Source of the DNA: an uncultured Alistipes sp. | GTDB taxonomy: Bacteria > Bacteroidota > Bacteroidia > Bacteroidales > Rikenellaceae | Direction of reading: 5' to 3' | NCBI GenBank assembly: GCA_944320685.1 | Contig: CALUIK010000001.1 | Span: 186,001 to 250,000 of the forward strand | DNA: 64,000 nt | Part shown: positions 58,332 to 63,464 of the stretch, piece after piece | Layout: each line of letters opens with the position of its first letter | Position numbering within the stretch: the first letter of the stretch is position 1 | Made by a program: the position numbers and the translations under genes | Notes under the pieces: model-generated | Database searches by the model: none | Told to the model about the DNA's origin: nothing | What the model saw: only the letters and a program-made list of their open reading frames with translations

Positions 58332-59366
58332 ATGGAATTTACCGCAGAGATGATAGCGGGCCTCATCGGAGGCCGCATCGAAGGCGACGCCAAAGCCACC
58401 GTAAACACCGTATCTTCGCTCGAGGGGGGACACAAAGGCTCGCTCACCTACCTCACCAACGTCAAATACGAGCCTTTCGTATACACTACGGGAGCCTCCA
58501 TCGTTCTTGTCAGCGACACGTTCGAGCCCAAGTCGCCAGTAGCGGCGACACTCATCAGGGTCGCCGACGTAGGCGTTGCCATACTGCGCCTGCTCGAAAT
58601 GTACAACGCCGCCAAACCCCGCAAGACGGGCATCTCGTCCCGCGCCTCGGTATCGCCCGATGCCAAAGTGGGCAAGGAGTGCTATGTGGGCGACTTCGCC
58701 GTCATCGAGGCGGGTGCCGTCATCGGCGACGGCTGCGCCATATATCCGCAGACATATGTGGGCGACGGGGTAAAGATAGGCGACGCGACCACGCTCTACC
58801 CCGGGGTGAAGATATATGAGGGTTGCCGCATAGGCAGCCGATGCATCATACATGCCGGCGCCGTGATCGGAGCCGATGGGTTCGGATTCCTGCCCAACGC
58901 CGAAGGCGGTTTCGACAAGGTCCCGCAGGTGGGCAACGTAGTCATCGAGGACGATGTCGAGATCGGAGCCAACACCTGTATCGACCGTGCCAAGACCGAC
59001 TCTACGATTATCCGCCGCGGCGTGAAACTCGACAACCTCATACAGGTGGGCCACAATGTCGAGATCGGCGAAAACACCGTCTCGTCGGCACAGATGGGAA
59101 TAGCCGGCACCTCGAAGATCGGACGCAACTGTTTCCTCGCGGGACAGGTGGGCATTGCCGACCACGTCACCATAGGCGACAGGGTCAAGATAGGGTCAAA
59201 GACAGGTCTCGACAAGGATGTACCCGACGGCGAGATACGCTTCGGCTACCCCGCCCTGCCGGGCATGCAGTACCACCGTTCGTTTGCCGTCTTCAAGAAC
59301 CTGCCCGATCTGGCCAAGCGCGTCGCGGAGCTGGAGAAAGCGGTAAAGGAGGGCAAGGAGGGCTAA
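58332..59366 (+). CDS. lpxD: UDP-3-O-acylglucosamine N-acyltransferase
   Basis: LpxD adds the second acyl chain to UDP-3-O-acylglucosamine in lipid A synthesis. The 344-residue protein has an N-terminal uridine-binding domain (about residues 1-100) and a long left-handed beta-helix built from hexapeptide repeats such as VIEAGAVIGDG. The catalytic histidine is in NLIQVGHNVEIGENT. A C-terminal helical tail follows (LAKRVAELEKAV). It is a stand-alone lipid A gene here; lpxC and lpxA are not visible. Confidence 0.95.
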   Translation: MEFTAEMIAGLIGGRIEGDAKATVNTVSSLEGGHKGSLTYLTNVKYEPFVYTTGASIVLVSDTFEPKSPVAATLIRVADVGVAILRLLEMYNAAKPRKTGISSRASVSPDAKVGKECYVGDFAVIEAGAVIGDGCAIYPQTYVGDGVKIGDATTLYPGVKIYEGCRIGSRCIIHAGAVIGADGFGFLPNAEGGFDKVPQVGNVVIEDDVEIGANTCIDRAKTDSTIIRRGVKLDNLIQVGHNVEIGENTVSSAQMGIAGTSKIGRNCFLAGQVGIADHVTIGDRVKIGSKTGLDKDVPDGEIRFGYPALPGMQYHRSFAVFKNLPDLAKRVAELEKAVKEGKEG

Positions 59367-59414: not shown

Positions 59415-60509
59415 ATGAAAAAAATCTTCATTATCCTAATCGCGTGCATGGCAGTAACGGCAGGTTTCGGAAAAGGAGACAAATATGTCCTGATTGCCGA
59501 GGATCCGGAGTTCGTAAACGGCCGATATGCGTATCTGGGTGTGGAGGATATGTGCACGGGGAAGCCCGAGACAGTCGATTCGGTGCTCATAGCGGATAAC
59601 ACGGTGCGGTTCGAGGGCAGAATCGGGACGCCGGCCGTGGCATATGTAATGACCTCCACCGCAGCAGGCACGGACCTGCCCGATGGACGCAAATTGGTCC
59701 AAGGCACCGCCATTCTCGAGGCCGGAACGATTGTATTGTGCCGTATGGCTGGATCGCTCTACCCCGAAGCGGGCAGCACACCGCTCAACGACCTGCTCGT
59801 ATCGTTCCTTACGGCAACCGCACAAACACGCGAGAAACTGGAGGAGGCGGAAACGGACGACGATTTCACAAAATTGATGAACGAATATTTCATCTACGCC
59901 GAAAACATCATACACAAAAACCGCGGCAACGCGCTCGGGGCCTATCTCCTCGACCTCATGTCGGCGGAGATGCCTCCGGCAGCAGTGCTGAGACTCATAT
60001 CGGAGTTCCCCGGGTGCGAGGAGCGGTTCTCCGAGACCAAAGCCATAGCCCAAACGGCCGTGACAGTCACCGCGGGGAACGAATACATCGACATAATCGG
60101 GGCCGGCCCCGAAGGTACGGAGATCGCATTGAGTGATGTCGTGGAAAACAGGGACTGCCGTTATGTCCTTGTAGACTTCTGGGCATCATGGTGCGGCCCC
60201 TGCATGCAGCAGCTGAAGGCATTGAGGAAATTGTACGGCAACTATCACGGCCGCGGGTTCGAGATATACGCCGTATCGAGCGATTTCTCGCGTGAAGCAT
60301 GGCTCGAAGCCATCGGCACAAACCGCATGGGCTGGGTCAACATCTTGGCCGACGGCGGGATGGAATCCCCCGCATATGAAAAATACGCCGTCTGTGCCAT
60401 ACCTTCCAATTTCCTCATCGACTGCGCCACGGGTAAAATCGTCGCCGCCAACTTACCCGTCACGGCGCTCGAACGGAAAATGCAAGAACTCATAAAGAAT
60501 CGTAGATAA
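59415..60509 (+). CDS. DUF4369/thioredoxin-fold protein, paralog 1
   Basis: This 364-residue exported protein has a signal peptide (MKKIFIILIACMAVTAGFG) that lacks a clear lipobox, an N-terminal DUF4369-type domain (about 20-215) and a C-terminal thioredoxin domain (about 235-364) with the redox motif CGPC in VDFWASWCGPCM. Such proteins in Bacteroidota are thought to work in periplasmic disulfide exchange, but substrates are unknown. It is the first of three tandem paralogs; its thioredoxin domain resembles the other two but is clearly diverged, unlike theirs which are identical. Confidence 0.85.
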   Translation: MKKIFIILIACMAVTAGFGKGDKYVLIAEDPEFVNGRYAYLGVEDMCTGKPETVDSVLIADNTVRFEGRIGTPAVAYVMTSTAAGTDLPDGRKLVQGTAILEAGTIVLCRMAGSLYPEAGSTPLNDLLVSFLTATAQTREKLEEAETDDDFTKLMNEYFIYAENIIHKNRGNALGAYLLDLMSAEMPPAAVLRLISEFPGCEERFSETKAIAQTAVTVTAGNEYIDIIGAGPEGTEIALSDVVENRDCRYVLVDFWASWCGPCMQQLKALRKLYGNYHGRGFEIYAVSSDFSREAWLEAIGTNRMGWVNILADGGMESPAYEKYAVCAIPSNFLIDCATGKIVAANLPVTALERKMQELIKNRR

Positions 60510-60541: not shown

Positions 60542-61630
60542 ATGAAAAGAATTTTCACACTCCTGCTTGCGGCAGCCGCAGTTGCAGGATGCACATCGAA
60601 CAAGTACACCATCAAGGGCAGCGACGAGGCACTTGCCGAAATGAACTACGTATTGCTGCAGACCATTGAGAACGGCGAGCGCAACACGCTCGACTCGGTG
60701 GCTGTTGTCGACAAATCGTTCGAAATCAAAGGTGAAGCGCCCGAGGCTCCCGCAATGGCATACCTCTTCTTCGGCGCCGTGGCTCCCGAGGACCCCACCA
60801 AGGCCATGCCCATGATGTTCCAGATCCCCGTCTTCCTCGAGGCCGGCAACATCACCGTCGGCAAGACTGAGAACACCTCTTTTGTGGCCAAGGGTACGCC
60901 CATGAACGACAAGCAGGCCGAGTTCAGTACCAAGATGACCGATCTGTCGAATGAGTTCCAGAAGGCTGCCGAAAGCGGTGACGAGCAGAAGATGAACGAA
61001 ATTCAGGACCAATTCCTCGTAGTCATCAAGGATGCCATCAGCGCCAATACGGACAACCTCTTCGGCGTATCGCTGTTCCAGCAGATGTACTACAACCTCA
61101 AACCGCAGGAGATCATCGACATCGTGGCCAAGTTCCCCGCCGAGAAGCAGGAGATGCTCGCTTCGATCAAGGCCGAGGCCGAGAACGCCCTCAAGACGCA
61201 GCCCGGACAGCCCTATATCGACATCGTGCAGAAGGATGCCGACGGCAAGGAGGTCTCGCTCAAGAGCGTCATCGAGACCGAAGGCAACAAATACGTGCTC
61301 ATCGACTTCTGGGCATCGTGGTGCGGCCCCTGCATGGGCGAGGTACCATTCCTCGTCGACACATATGCCAAGTACCACGACAAGGGATTCGAAATCTACG
61401 GAGTGTCGTTCGACAGCGACCGCGACGCTTGGCTCAATGCCATAGAGAGCAAGAAGATGACTTGGGTTCATGTAAGCGACGTCAACGGCTGGGACAATCA
61501 GGCCCGCAACGACTACGCCGTGAACGGCATCCCCGCAAACTACCTCATCGATTGCGCCACGGGCAAGATCGTCGCCACAGCGCTGCGCGGCGAGGCCCTG
61601 CAGGCCAAGATCGCCGAGCTGCTCGACTAA
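60542..61630 (+). CDS. DUF4369/TlpA-like lipoprotein, paralog 2
   Basis: This 362-residue protein starts with a lipoprotein signal peptide and lipobox (MKRIFTLLLAAAAVAGC), then an N-terminal domain (about 20-215) and a thioredoxin domain with CGPC in DFWASWCGPCMGEVPFLV. Its final 414 coding bases, together with 10 bases beyond the stop, are identical to those of paralog 3. It should be anchored in a membrane and act as a periplasmic thiol-disulfide oxidoreductase. The gene follows paralog 1 by 32 nt with no promoter seen between. Confidence 0.88.
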   Translation: MKRIFTLLLAAAAVAGCTSNKYTIKGSDEALAEMNYVLLQTIENGERNTLDSVAVVDKSFEIKGEAPEAPAMAYLFFGAVAPEDPTKAMPMMFQIPVFLEAGNITVGKTENTSFVAKGTPMNDKQAEFSTKMTDLSNEFQKAAESGDEQKMNEIQDQFLVVIKDAISANTDNLFGVSLFQQMYYNLKPQEIIDIVAKFPAEKQEMLASIKAEAENALKTQPGQPYIDIVQKDADGKEVSLKSVIETEGNKYVLIDFWASWCGPCMGEVPFLVDTYAKYHDKGFEIYGVSFDSDRDAWLNAIESKKMTWVHVSDVNGWDNQARNDYAVNGIPANYLIDCATGKIVATALRGEALQAKIAELLD

Positions 61631-61640
61631 ACGGCAGACA
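61217..61640 (+). repeat. 424-bp direct repeat, copy 1
   Basis: By line-by-line comparison this segment is identical to 62333-62756. It encodes the thioredoxin domain and includes the stop codon plus ten bases after it. The offset is 1116 bp, a multiple of three. Confidence 0.9.
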
Positions 61641-61672
61641 GCATCGCAATTAATTGAGTAAAACAAGGCAAA

Positions 61673-62746
61673 ATGAAAAACGTCACAGCAATCATATTTG
61701 CAATGACCGTTATAGCAGGATGTTCTACCGGAACAGGGTACACTATAACGGGAAGCGATCCTGCTTTCATCGATGGGCAATACGCATACCTCACAAAAGA
61801 GGACAACGGCCAAATCATAACGGTTGATTCGACGGCTATCGCTGACAATTGCTTTTCGTTCAAGGGGGAGGCAGAGTATCCCGTATCGGCATGTATCATA
61901 GTGGGGGCTTCTCAGGAACAAGCCAAAACATACATCGATCTATATCTTGAGCGCGGCAATATATGCGTAAAGAAAGTAAAGCCCGAACACCGCGCATTCA
62001 ATGCCGTAGGAACTCCTCTGAACGATATCCGGACCGCCCACAACTGCAAGATGTGGGATTGCCTTATGGATATGCAGGCGAACGGAGAATCGCAGGATAA
62101 GATAATGGGCAAAATCATGGATATCGTCAGGGAAAACATCAAGGAGAACAAGGACAATCTGGTAGGTGTCGATCTGTTGTGCCAAACTGCGCAAGGACTG
62201 GAGCCGCAGGAAATCATCGACCTGATTGCCTCAATACCGATGCAAAATTTTCCGGAGAGTGTACAGGCAAAGATCGAAAGCACGAAGAGGAATGCCGAAA
62301 TGGCCCTGAGAACGGTCTTGGGCAATAACTACATCGACATCGTGCAGAAGGATGCCGACGGCAAGGAGGTCTCGCTCAAGAGCGTCATCGAGACCGAAGG
62401 CAACAAATACGTGCTCATCGACTTCTGGGCATCGTGGTGCGGCCCCTGCATGGGCGAGGTACCATTCCTCGTCGACACATATGCCAAGTACCACGACAAG
62501 GGATTCGAAATCTACGGAGTGTCGTTCGACAGCGACCGCGACGCTTGGCTCAATGCCATAGAGAGCAAGAAGATGACTTGGGTTCATGTAAGCGACGTCA
62601 ACGGCTGGGACAATCAGGCCCGCAACGACTACGCCGTGAACGGCATCCCCGCAAACTACCTCATCGATTGCGCCACGGGCAAGATCGTCGCCACAGCGCT
62701 GCGCGGCGAGGCCCTGCAGGCCAAGATCGCCGAGCTGCTCGACTAA
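61673..62746 (+). CDS. DUF4369/TlpA-like lipoprotein, paralog 3
   Basis: This 357-residue lipoprotein begins MKNVTAIIFAMTVIAGC with a lipobox. Its N-terminal domain (about 20-220) is only loosely similar to that of paralog 2 and is more AT-rich, whereas the thioredoxin domain with CGPC is identical in DNA. So one module has been copied over or newly joined while the other differs. It is the last gene before a strong intrinsic terminator, so the three paralogs probably form one unit. Confidence 0.88.
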   Translation: MKNVTAIIFAMTVIAGCSTGTGYTITGSDPAFIDGQYAYLTKEDNGQIITVDSTAIADNCFSFKGEAEYPVSACIIVGASQEQAKTYIDLYLERGNICVKKVKPEHRAFNAVGTPLNDIRTAHNCKMWDCLMDMQANGESQDKIMGKIMDIVRENIKENKDNLVGVDLLCQTAQGLEPQEIIDLIASIPMQNFPESVQAKIESTKRNAEMALRTVLGNNYIDIVQKDADGKEVSLKSVIETEGNKYVLIDFWASWCGPCMGEVPFLVDTYAKYHDKGFEIYGVSFDSDRDAWLNAIESKKMTWVHVSDVNGWDNQARNDYAVNGIPANYLIDCATGKIVATALRGEALQAKIAELLD

Positions 62747-62756
62747 ACGGCAGACA
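62333..62756 (+). repeat. 424-bp direct repeat, copy 2
   Basis: Identical to 61217-61640. The match begins at the ATCGAC of the conserved YIDIVQKDADG segment and ends ten bases after the stop codon. Just outside both ends the sequences diverge abruptly. Confidence 0.9.
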
Positions 62757-62774: not shown

Positions 62775-62810
62775 CGACAACACGCCGTACGGCGTGTTGT
62801 CGTTTTTTTT
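62775..62810 (+). terminator. Strong intrinsic terminator after paralog 3
   Basis: CGACAACACGCC (62775-62786) and GGCGTGTTGTCG (62791-62802) form a perfect 12-bp stem with a GTAC loop, followed by eight T residues (62803-62810). It ends the thioredoxin unit. Confidence 0.95.
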
Positions 62811-62852: not shown

Positions 62853-63464
62853 ATGGACAACAGTGAAAAATATCGCATCATGGGTATAGACCCCGGCACC
62901 AACTACATGGGTTACGGTGTGATCGAGGTCGACGAACGCACATTGCGCTCCGTGGTGATGGGCGACATCGACATGCACCGCATGGAGGATCCCTACGACA
63001 AGTTGCGGTACATATTCGAACGTGTCGGTGCGCTCATCGAGCAGTATGCGCCCCGCGAGGTGGCGCTCGAATCGCCATTCTTCGGTTCCAACGTGCAGAG
63101 CATGCTCAAACTGGGACGTGCACAGGGCGTGGCCATGGCCGCAGCGCTGAGCAGGGGCAGGCAGGTGTTCGAATATGCCCCCACGCGCATCAAGCAAGCC
63201 ATTACGGGACGCGGCGCCGCCTCGAAGGAGCAGGTGGCGGCAATCGTGCGCCACACGCTGCGCATAGACTACATGCCGCGACGGCTGGATGCTACGGACG
63301 GCATGGCCGTTGCGCTGTGCCACTTCTTCGCCACCTCCTCGCCCATCGCCCGCGCCATGGGCGAAGAGAGGGTCAAGGGCCTCGGCGGCCGCAAGAAGGC
63401 CGTGAAGGGTTCCTTGTCGTGGGAGGCCTTCATACGCAACAATCCCGACCGCGAAGTAAAATAA
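62853..63464 (+). CDS. ruvC: Crossover junction endodeoxyribonuclease
   Basis: RuvC cleaves Holliday junctions as a dimer with RuvAB. The 203-residue protein has IMGIDPGTNYMGYGVIE with the first catalytic Asp, the Glu in ALESPFFGSNVQSMLKLGRA and the pair of acidic residues in RLDATDGMAVALCH, as in E. coli DAADALA. The C-terminus is about 30 residues longer than in E. coli (173) and basic. No ruvA or ruvB is near. Confidence 0.95.
   Translation: MDNSEKYRIMGIDPGTNYMGYGVIEVDERTLRSVVMGDIDMHRMEDPYDKLRYIFERVGALIEQYAPREVALESPFFGSNVQSMLKLGRAQGVAMAAALSRGRQVFEYAPTRIKQAITGRGAASKEQVAAIVRHTLRIDYMPRRLDATDGMAVALCHFFATSSPIARAMGEERVKGLGGRKKAVKGSLSWEAFIRNNPDREVK

Follow-up and report, generated by a model that had tools for sequence, protein, structure and literature searches.

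Two neighbouring lipoprotein genes of an uncultured Alistipes sp., B and C, share a thioredoxin module that is identical base for base. We favour recent gene conversion as the explanation, at a probability of about two in three: homologous recombination would have copied the thioredoxin module of B non-reciprocally into C, an older paralog that presumably had its own module beforehand. The identity, a composition mosaic within C and discordant trees for its two modules were observed directly, with B on the donor side. The window analysed, 64,000 nucleotides of contig CALUIK010000001.1, holds both genes in a tandem array between lpxD and ruvC.

The order lpxD, one to three thioredoxin-type genes, ruvC is conserved in Alistipes. 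Among 66 loci with both anchors, 42 had one gene in the array, 17 had two and six had none in the interval; a three-gene array was seen in the window only. Genes A, B and C are tandem paralogs, each combining a DUF4369-like module at the N-terminus with a thioredoxin-like module, bearing WCGPC, at the C-terminus. B and C exceeded the Pfam cut-offs for Thioredoxin_8, AhpC-TSA and DUF4369 (DUF4369 matches of 4e-12 and 3e-11 in their N-modules), and the DUF4369 match of gene A fell below the cut-off. Lipobox cysteines are present in B and C. In gene A and its ortholog in the related locus L038 (L038:4830-5921), by contrast, the signal peptide lacks a lipobox cysteine, and the product of A may be soluble in the periplasm. 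The array ends at a strong, terminator-like hairpin (core 62775-62802), and this terminator flank is common to the relatives L038 and L037, 3' of the last array gene. A search of the literature found no description of an lpxD-ruvC thioredoxin array.

Features of the lpxD-ruvC array, in window positions
Feature	Position	Strand	Description	Evidence
lpxD	58332..59366	+	Upstream anchor of array	Pfam LpxD/Hexapep; same neighbour in most related loci
Gene A	59415..60509	+	Diverged paralog; DUF4369-like N-module and thioredoxin module with WCGPC	
Gene B	60542..61630	+	TlpA-like lipoprotein; source of the thioredoxin module (preferred reading)	Lipobox ..VAGC
Tract copy 1	61217..61640	+	Thioredoxin module of B and 10 bp beyond the stop; 424 bp	
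Unique inter-copy stretch	61641..62332	+	32 bp intergenic and N-module of C	
Gene C	61673..62746	+	TlpA-like lipoprotein; mosaic of own N-module and thioredoxin module of B	Lipobox ..IAGC
Tract copy 2	62333..62756	+	In gene C; 424 bp	
Intrinsic-terminator-like hairpin and T-run	62775..62810	+	Closes array upstream of ruvC	
ruvC	62853..63464	+	Downstream anchor of array	Pfam RuvC 2e-41

Two kinds of variant were seen at other loci. The second tandem gene at L039:7148-7633 and L162:4418-4948 encodes just 162-177 aa, in essence a thioredoxin module without the DUF4369 module. About 1 kb without a family match separates the thioredoxin gene from ruvC at L154:4387-5422, L157:4306-5432 and L161:4136-5228; this interval apparently holds an unrelated reading frame whose start resembles a signal peptide.

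An earlier note on this DNA had reported that the two tract copies are base-for-base identical and that the identity runs ten bases past the stop codon, where the tract was said to end. Direct sequence comparison bore this out: the match is exact over 424 bp at an offset of 1116, and the stop codons lie at 61628-61630 in B and 62744-62746 in C. The right edge of the tract is therefore just 3' of the stop, approximately where paralog homology itself stops. On the left, the tract begins at residue 221 of C and so leaves out roughly the first ten residues of the structural thioredoxin domain (domain matches start near residue 211; model pLDDT 94). There is a single mismatch at 61216, beyond which the match would run to 61213. 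This pair is the sole strong repeat of the window. At four-fold sites, B and C match at 59/59 positions in the thioredoxin module and at 16/38 in the N-module, an identity far above chance expectation; a tract near-identical at silent sites is thus flanked by diverged paralogous sequence, a pattern expected of gene conversion. The parts upstream were described as almost unrelated, which is so solely when they are compared ungapped: in a gapped alignment the N-modules prove homologous, with an amino acid identity of about 39-41%, and both match DUF4369. The third paralog, gene A, is indeed diverged throughout, with 25-31% amino acid identity in the N-module and 49% in the thioredoxin module.

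Base composition and phylogeny both divide gene C at the tract. GC3 of C rises from 0.57 in the N-module to 0.84 in the thioredoxin module (Fisher p=7e-8), and B shows no such step (0.79 to 0.84; p=0.27). In the thioredoxin-module tree, B and C grouped together with the B orthologs L038_2 and L037_1 (SH-aLRT 98 for B, C and L038_2; 91 for the wider group). In the N-module tree, C formed a long separate branch outside the B-ortholog clade. Forcing the N-module of C into that clade was rejected (AU p=0.008), as was constraining B and C as sisters in the same tree (p=0.011). The phylogeny of the tract thus conflicts with that of the rest of the gene, a further mark of gene conversion. Because the N-module of C lies outside the B clade and its thioredoxin module is that of B, the module came from the B lineage and was copied into C. 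In this module, 31-36% of four-fold sites differ between B and its orthologs in the two nearest sampled species, and the copying is therefore younger than the splits from those species. Among 180 genomes of the genus, no C ortholog with its own original thioredoxin module was found; the best match to its N-module was 41%.

A second tract, found at this locus in a different species of the genus (L151), bears on how such identity arises. There, the last ~111 bp of two tandem genes are identical at 107/111 positions, running past the stop. Over the last 99 nt, the tandem copies of the sister species L148 match at 73/99. In this stretch, copy 2 of L151 matches copy 1 of L148 at 91/99, but its own L148 ortholog at 75/99; over the 200 nt upstream of the tract, orthologs match at 172-185 positions and paralogs at 120. 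In permutations of silent matches, 0/2000 reached the observed clustering, both in the window pair and in L151. As judged from these alignments, the L151 tract is an independent and unambiguous conversion, because L148 keeps both copies diverged there; a pre-existing recipient with a diverged segment of its own is thus documented for L151. In L151 the downstream copy received sequence from the upstream one, which matches the polarity proposed for B and C.

Applied to the window, gene conversion would have acted on DUF4369-TlpA genes that had long been tandem paralogs. The copied segment would start at the YIDI linker, end ~10 bp beyond the stop and overwrite the matching part of C. This end of the gene may be favoured, since the catalytic module retains longer runs of identical DNA in which recombination could start. 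The longest exact run between paralogs had a median of 11 nt in N-modules and 18 nt in thioredoxin modules, and was greater in the thioredoxin module in 23/28 pairs, making initiation there a plausible inference. The earlier note attached weight to the offset of 1116 bp being a multiple of three, and expected recombination between the copies to leave a chimeric gene. Neither point survives: the repeat is in frame within both genes, so a recombinant would be in frame at any spacing. With identical modules, moreover, a deletion between them would remove C and restore gene B exactly, now with the 3' flank of C.

The alternative that deserves most attention, although we consider it unlikely, is a duplicative gain, in which an N-module of foreign or distant origin, together with a short spacer, was inserted beside B and the thioredoxin module plus 10 bp was duplicated, making C a new chimera. 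Downstream of C lies a flank homologous to the one that follows B in L038 (24/35; shuffle p=0.0005), where B is the last gene and has the same type of terminal flank as C has here. It follows either that L038 lost a downstream gene or that the lineage of the window acquired C as the module was duplicated; the flank comparison would also fit insertion of C beside B. Such a gain would further account for the missing close ortholog of C's N-module among the 180 genomes and for the G+C of 0.47 in the inter-copy stretch, against 0.60 in the window, although the first array gene of L038 is likewise low in G+C. Speaking against such a gain, the N-module of C is a member of the same locus-linked family, with a lipobox and spacing of its own. 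L151, moreover, is a plain conversion of a pre-existing paralog, and we prefer conversion over a gain of C because of this clean precedent. The earlier note had left the choice between recent gene conversion and exchange of an N-terminal cassette. The GC3 step, the discordant trees and L151 speak for the former, and cassette exchange is not needed.

An assembly or consensus artefact, by which slightly different modules were collapsed or one copy was filled from the other, appears very improbable. An exact repeat of 424 bp is longer than usual short-read k-mers, but each copy has unique flanks on both sides, the two lie within one 905-kb contig (of a 2.49-Mb genome in 14 contigs), and the order of lpxD and ruvC is conserved. 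Even if a few differences had been erased, far more silent differences would be expected without copying, as in other pairs. Strong purifying selection holding the modules identical without any recombination is scarcely credible. The thioredoxin module is indeed the better conserved of the two modules throughout the family, and its greater similarity in nearly all pairs mostly reflects constraint, but all silent sites are identical between B and C, whereas roughly 30-80% of four-fold sites match in this module in other tandem pairs at the same locus. This contradicts selection as the sole cause.

Gene conversion at the lpxD-ruvC array is occasional, with no dedicated system, since the permutation test on silent sites found recent tracts in just 2/33 same-locus paralog pairs. 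Recurrent homogenisation across most species with tandem pairs was not seen: many pairs form separate clades in both modules. Several candidates were set aside. The copies in L037 are 77% identical in amino acids in the thioredoxin module, with a non-significant silent-site test (p=0.2); weak signals in L073 and L099 (p about 0.02) were lost under 33 tests. Contigs of G122, G010, G018 and G008 end in or at the edge of the module, a number no higher than chance by our estimate, in view of how many contigs the searched genomes have, and contig breaks were dropped as a sign of repeats. At L055:5965-8089 and L059:5965-8089, the tandem thioredoxin modules group together and the N-modules do not (AU p=0.0006; a broader grouping was not rejected, p=0.18), with no clustered silent matches; one older conversion in a common ancestor is possible.

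B and C show the family combination of a DUF4369 N-module and a thioredoxin-like domain with CxxC. AlphaFold gave a confident two-part protein whose C-terminal part matched Bacteroides TlpA-type domains (4GRF, 3FW2, 3FKF) and ResA in the fold search; the thioredoxin domain filled the results, which were uninformative on the fold of the N-module. From family and fold, both proteins are predicted to be, probably, lipid-anchored envelope WCGPC thiol-disulfide oxidoreductases of the ResA/TlpA type, in which one and the same redox domain is probably combined with differing N-terminal modules. They share the thioredoxin fold of the DUF4369-type TlpA/ResA-like oxidoreductases of Bacteroidota (C-terminal domains 4GRF, 3FW2, 3FKF and 2LRN; VIA-align Z 20.8-22.4, rmsd 1.7-2.0 over 139-142 residues), and differ in forming a tandem array at lpxD-ruvC with one module common to two members. 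We found no paper on these four structure entries. With Bacillus ResA (soluble domain, Z about 19 by VIA-align) and the TlpA/CcmG/DsbE reductases, they have in common a membrane-tethered CxxC thioredoxin-fold domain. The array proteins differ in their extra N-module, and gene B stayed below the NCBIfam cut-offs for ResA, TlpA and DsbE (67.7 vs 170, 43.8 vs 230 and 36.8 vs 123 bits). No cytochrome c maturation genes were found among the immediate array neighbours examined.

Gene conversion and concerted evolution between prokaryotic paralogs are already known: in surveyed cases, tandem pairs included, both silent and replacement sites put paralogs of one genome closer to each other than to orthologs, and gene conversion was invoked (PMC6053082). 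The lpxD-ruvC array differs in that one domain alone was homogenised, and occasionally, in contrast to long-lasting concerted evolution of whole genes. The probable conversion of C by B is an ordinary process in unusually clean form and reveals no new mechanism. It is a doubtful further step, and one we regard as improbable, to see the array as a locus of module exchange, where varied N-modules are repeatedly joined to a shared thioredoxin module by recombination in the conserved catalytic end; if true, new partner specificities would be tried out on a constant redox domain. As it stands, the array cleanly illustrates gene conversion confined to one domain of tandem bacterial paralogs: donor, recipient and tract ends can be identified, and another species has an independent event of its own at this locus. 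The case shows how a gene pair can keep one domain alike even as its other domain diverges, and it cautions that whole-sequence trees of such genes mislead.
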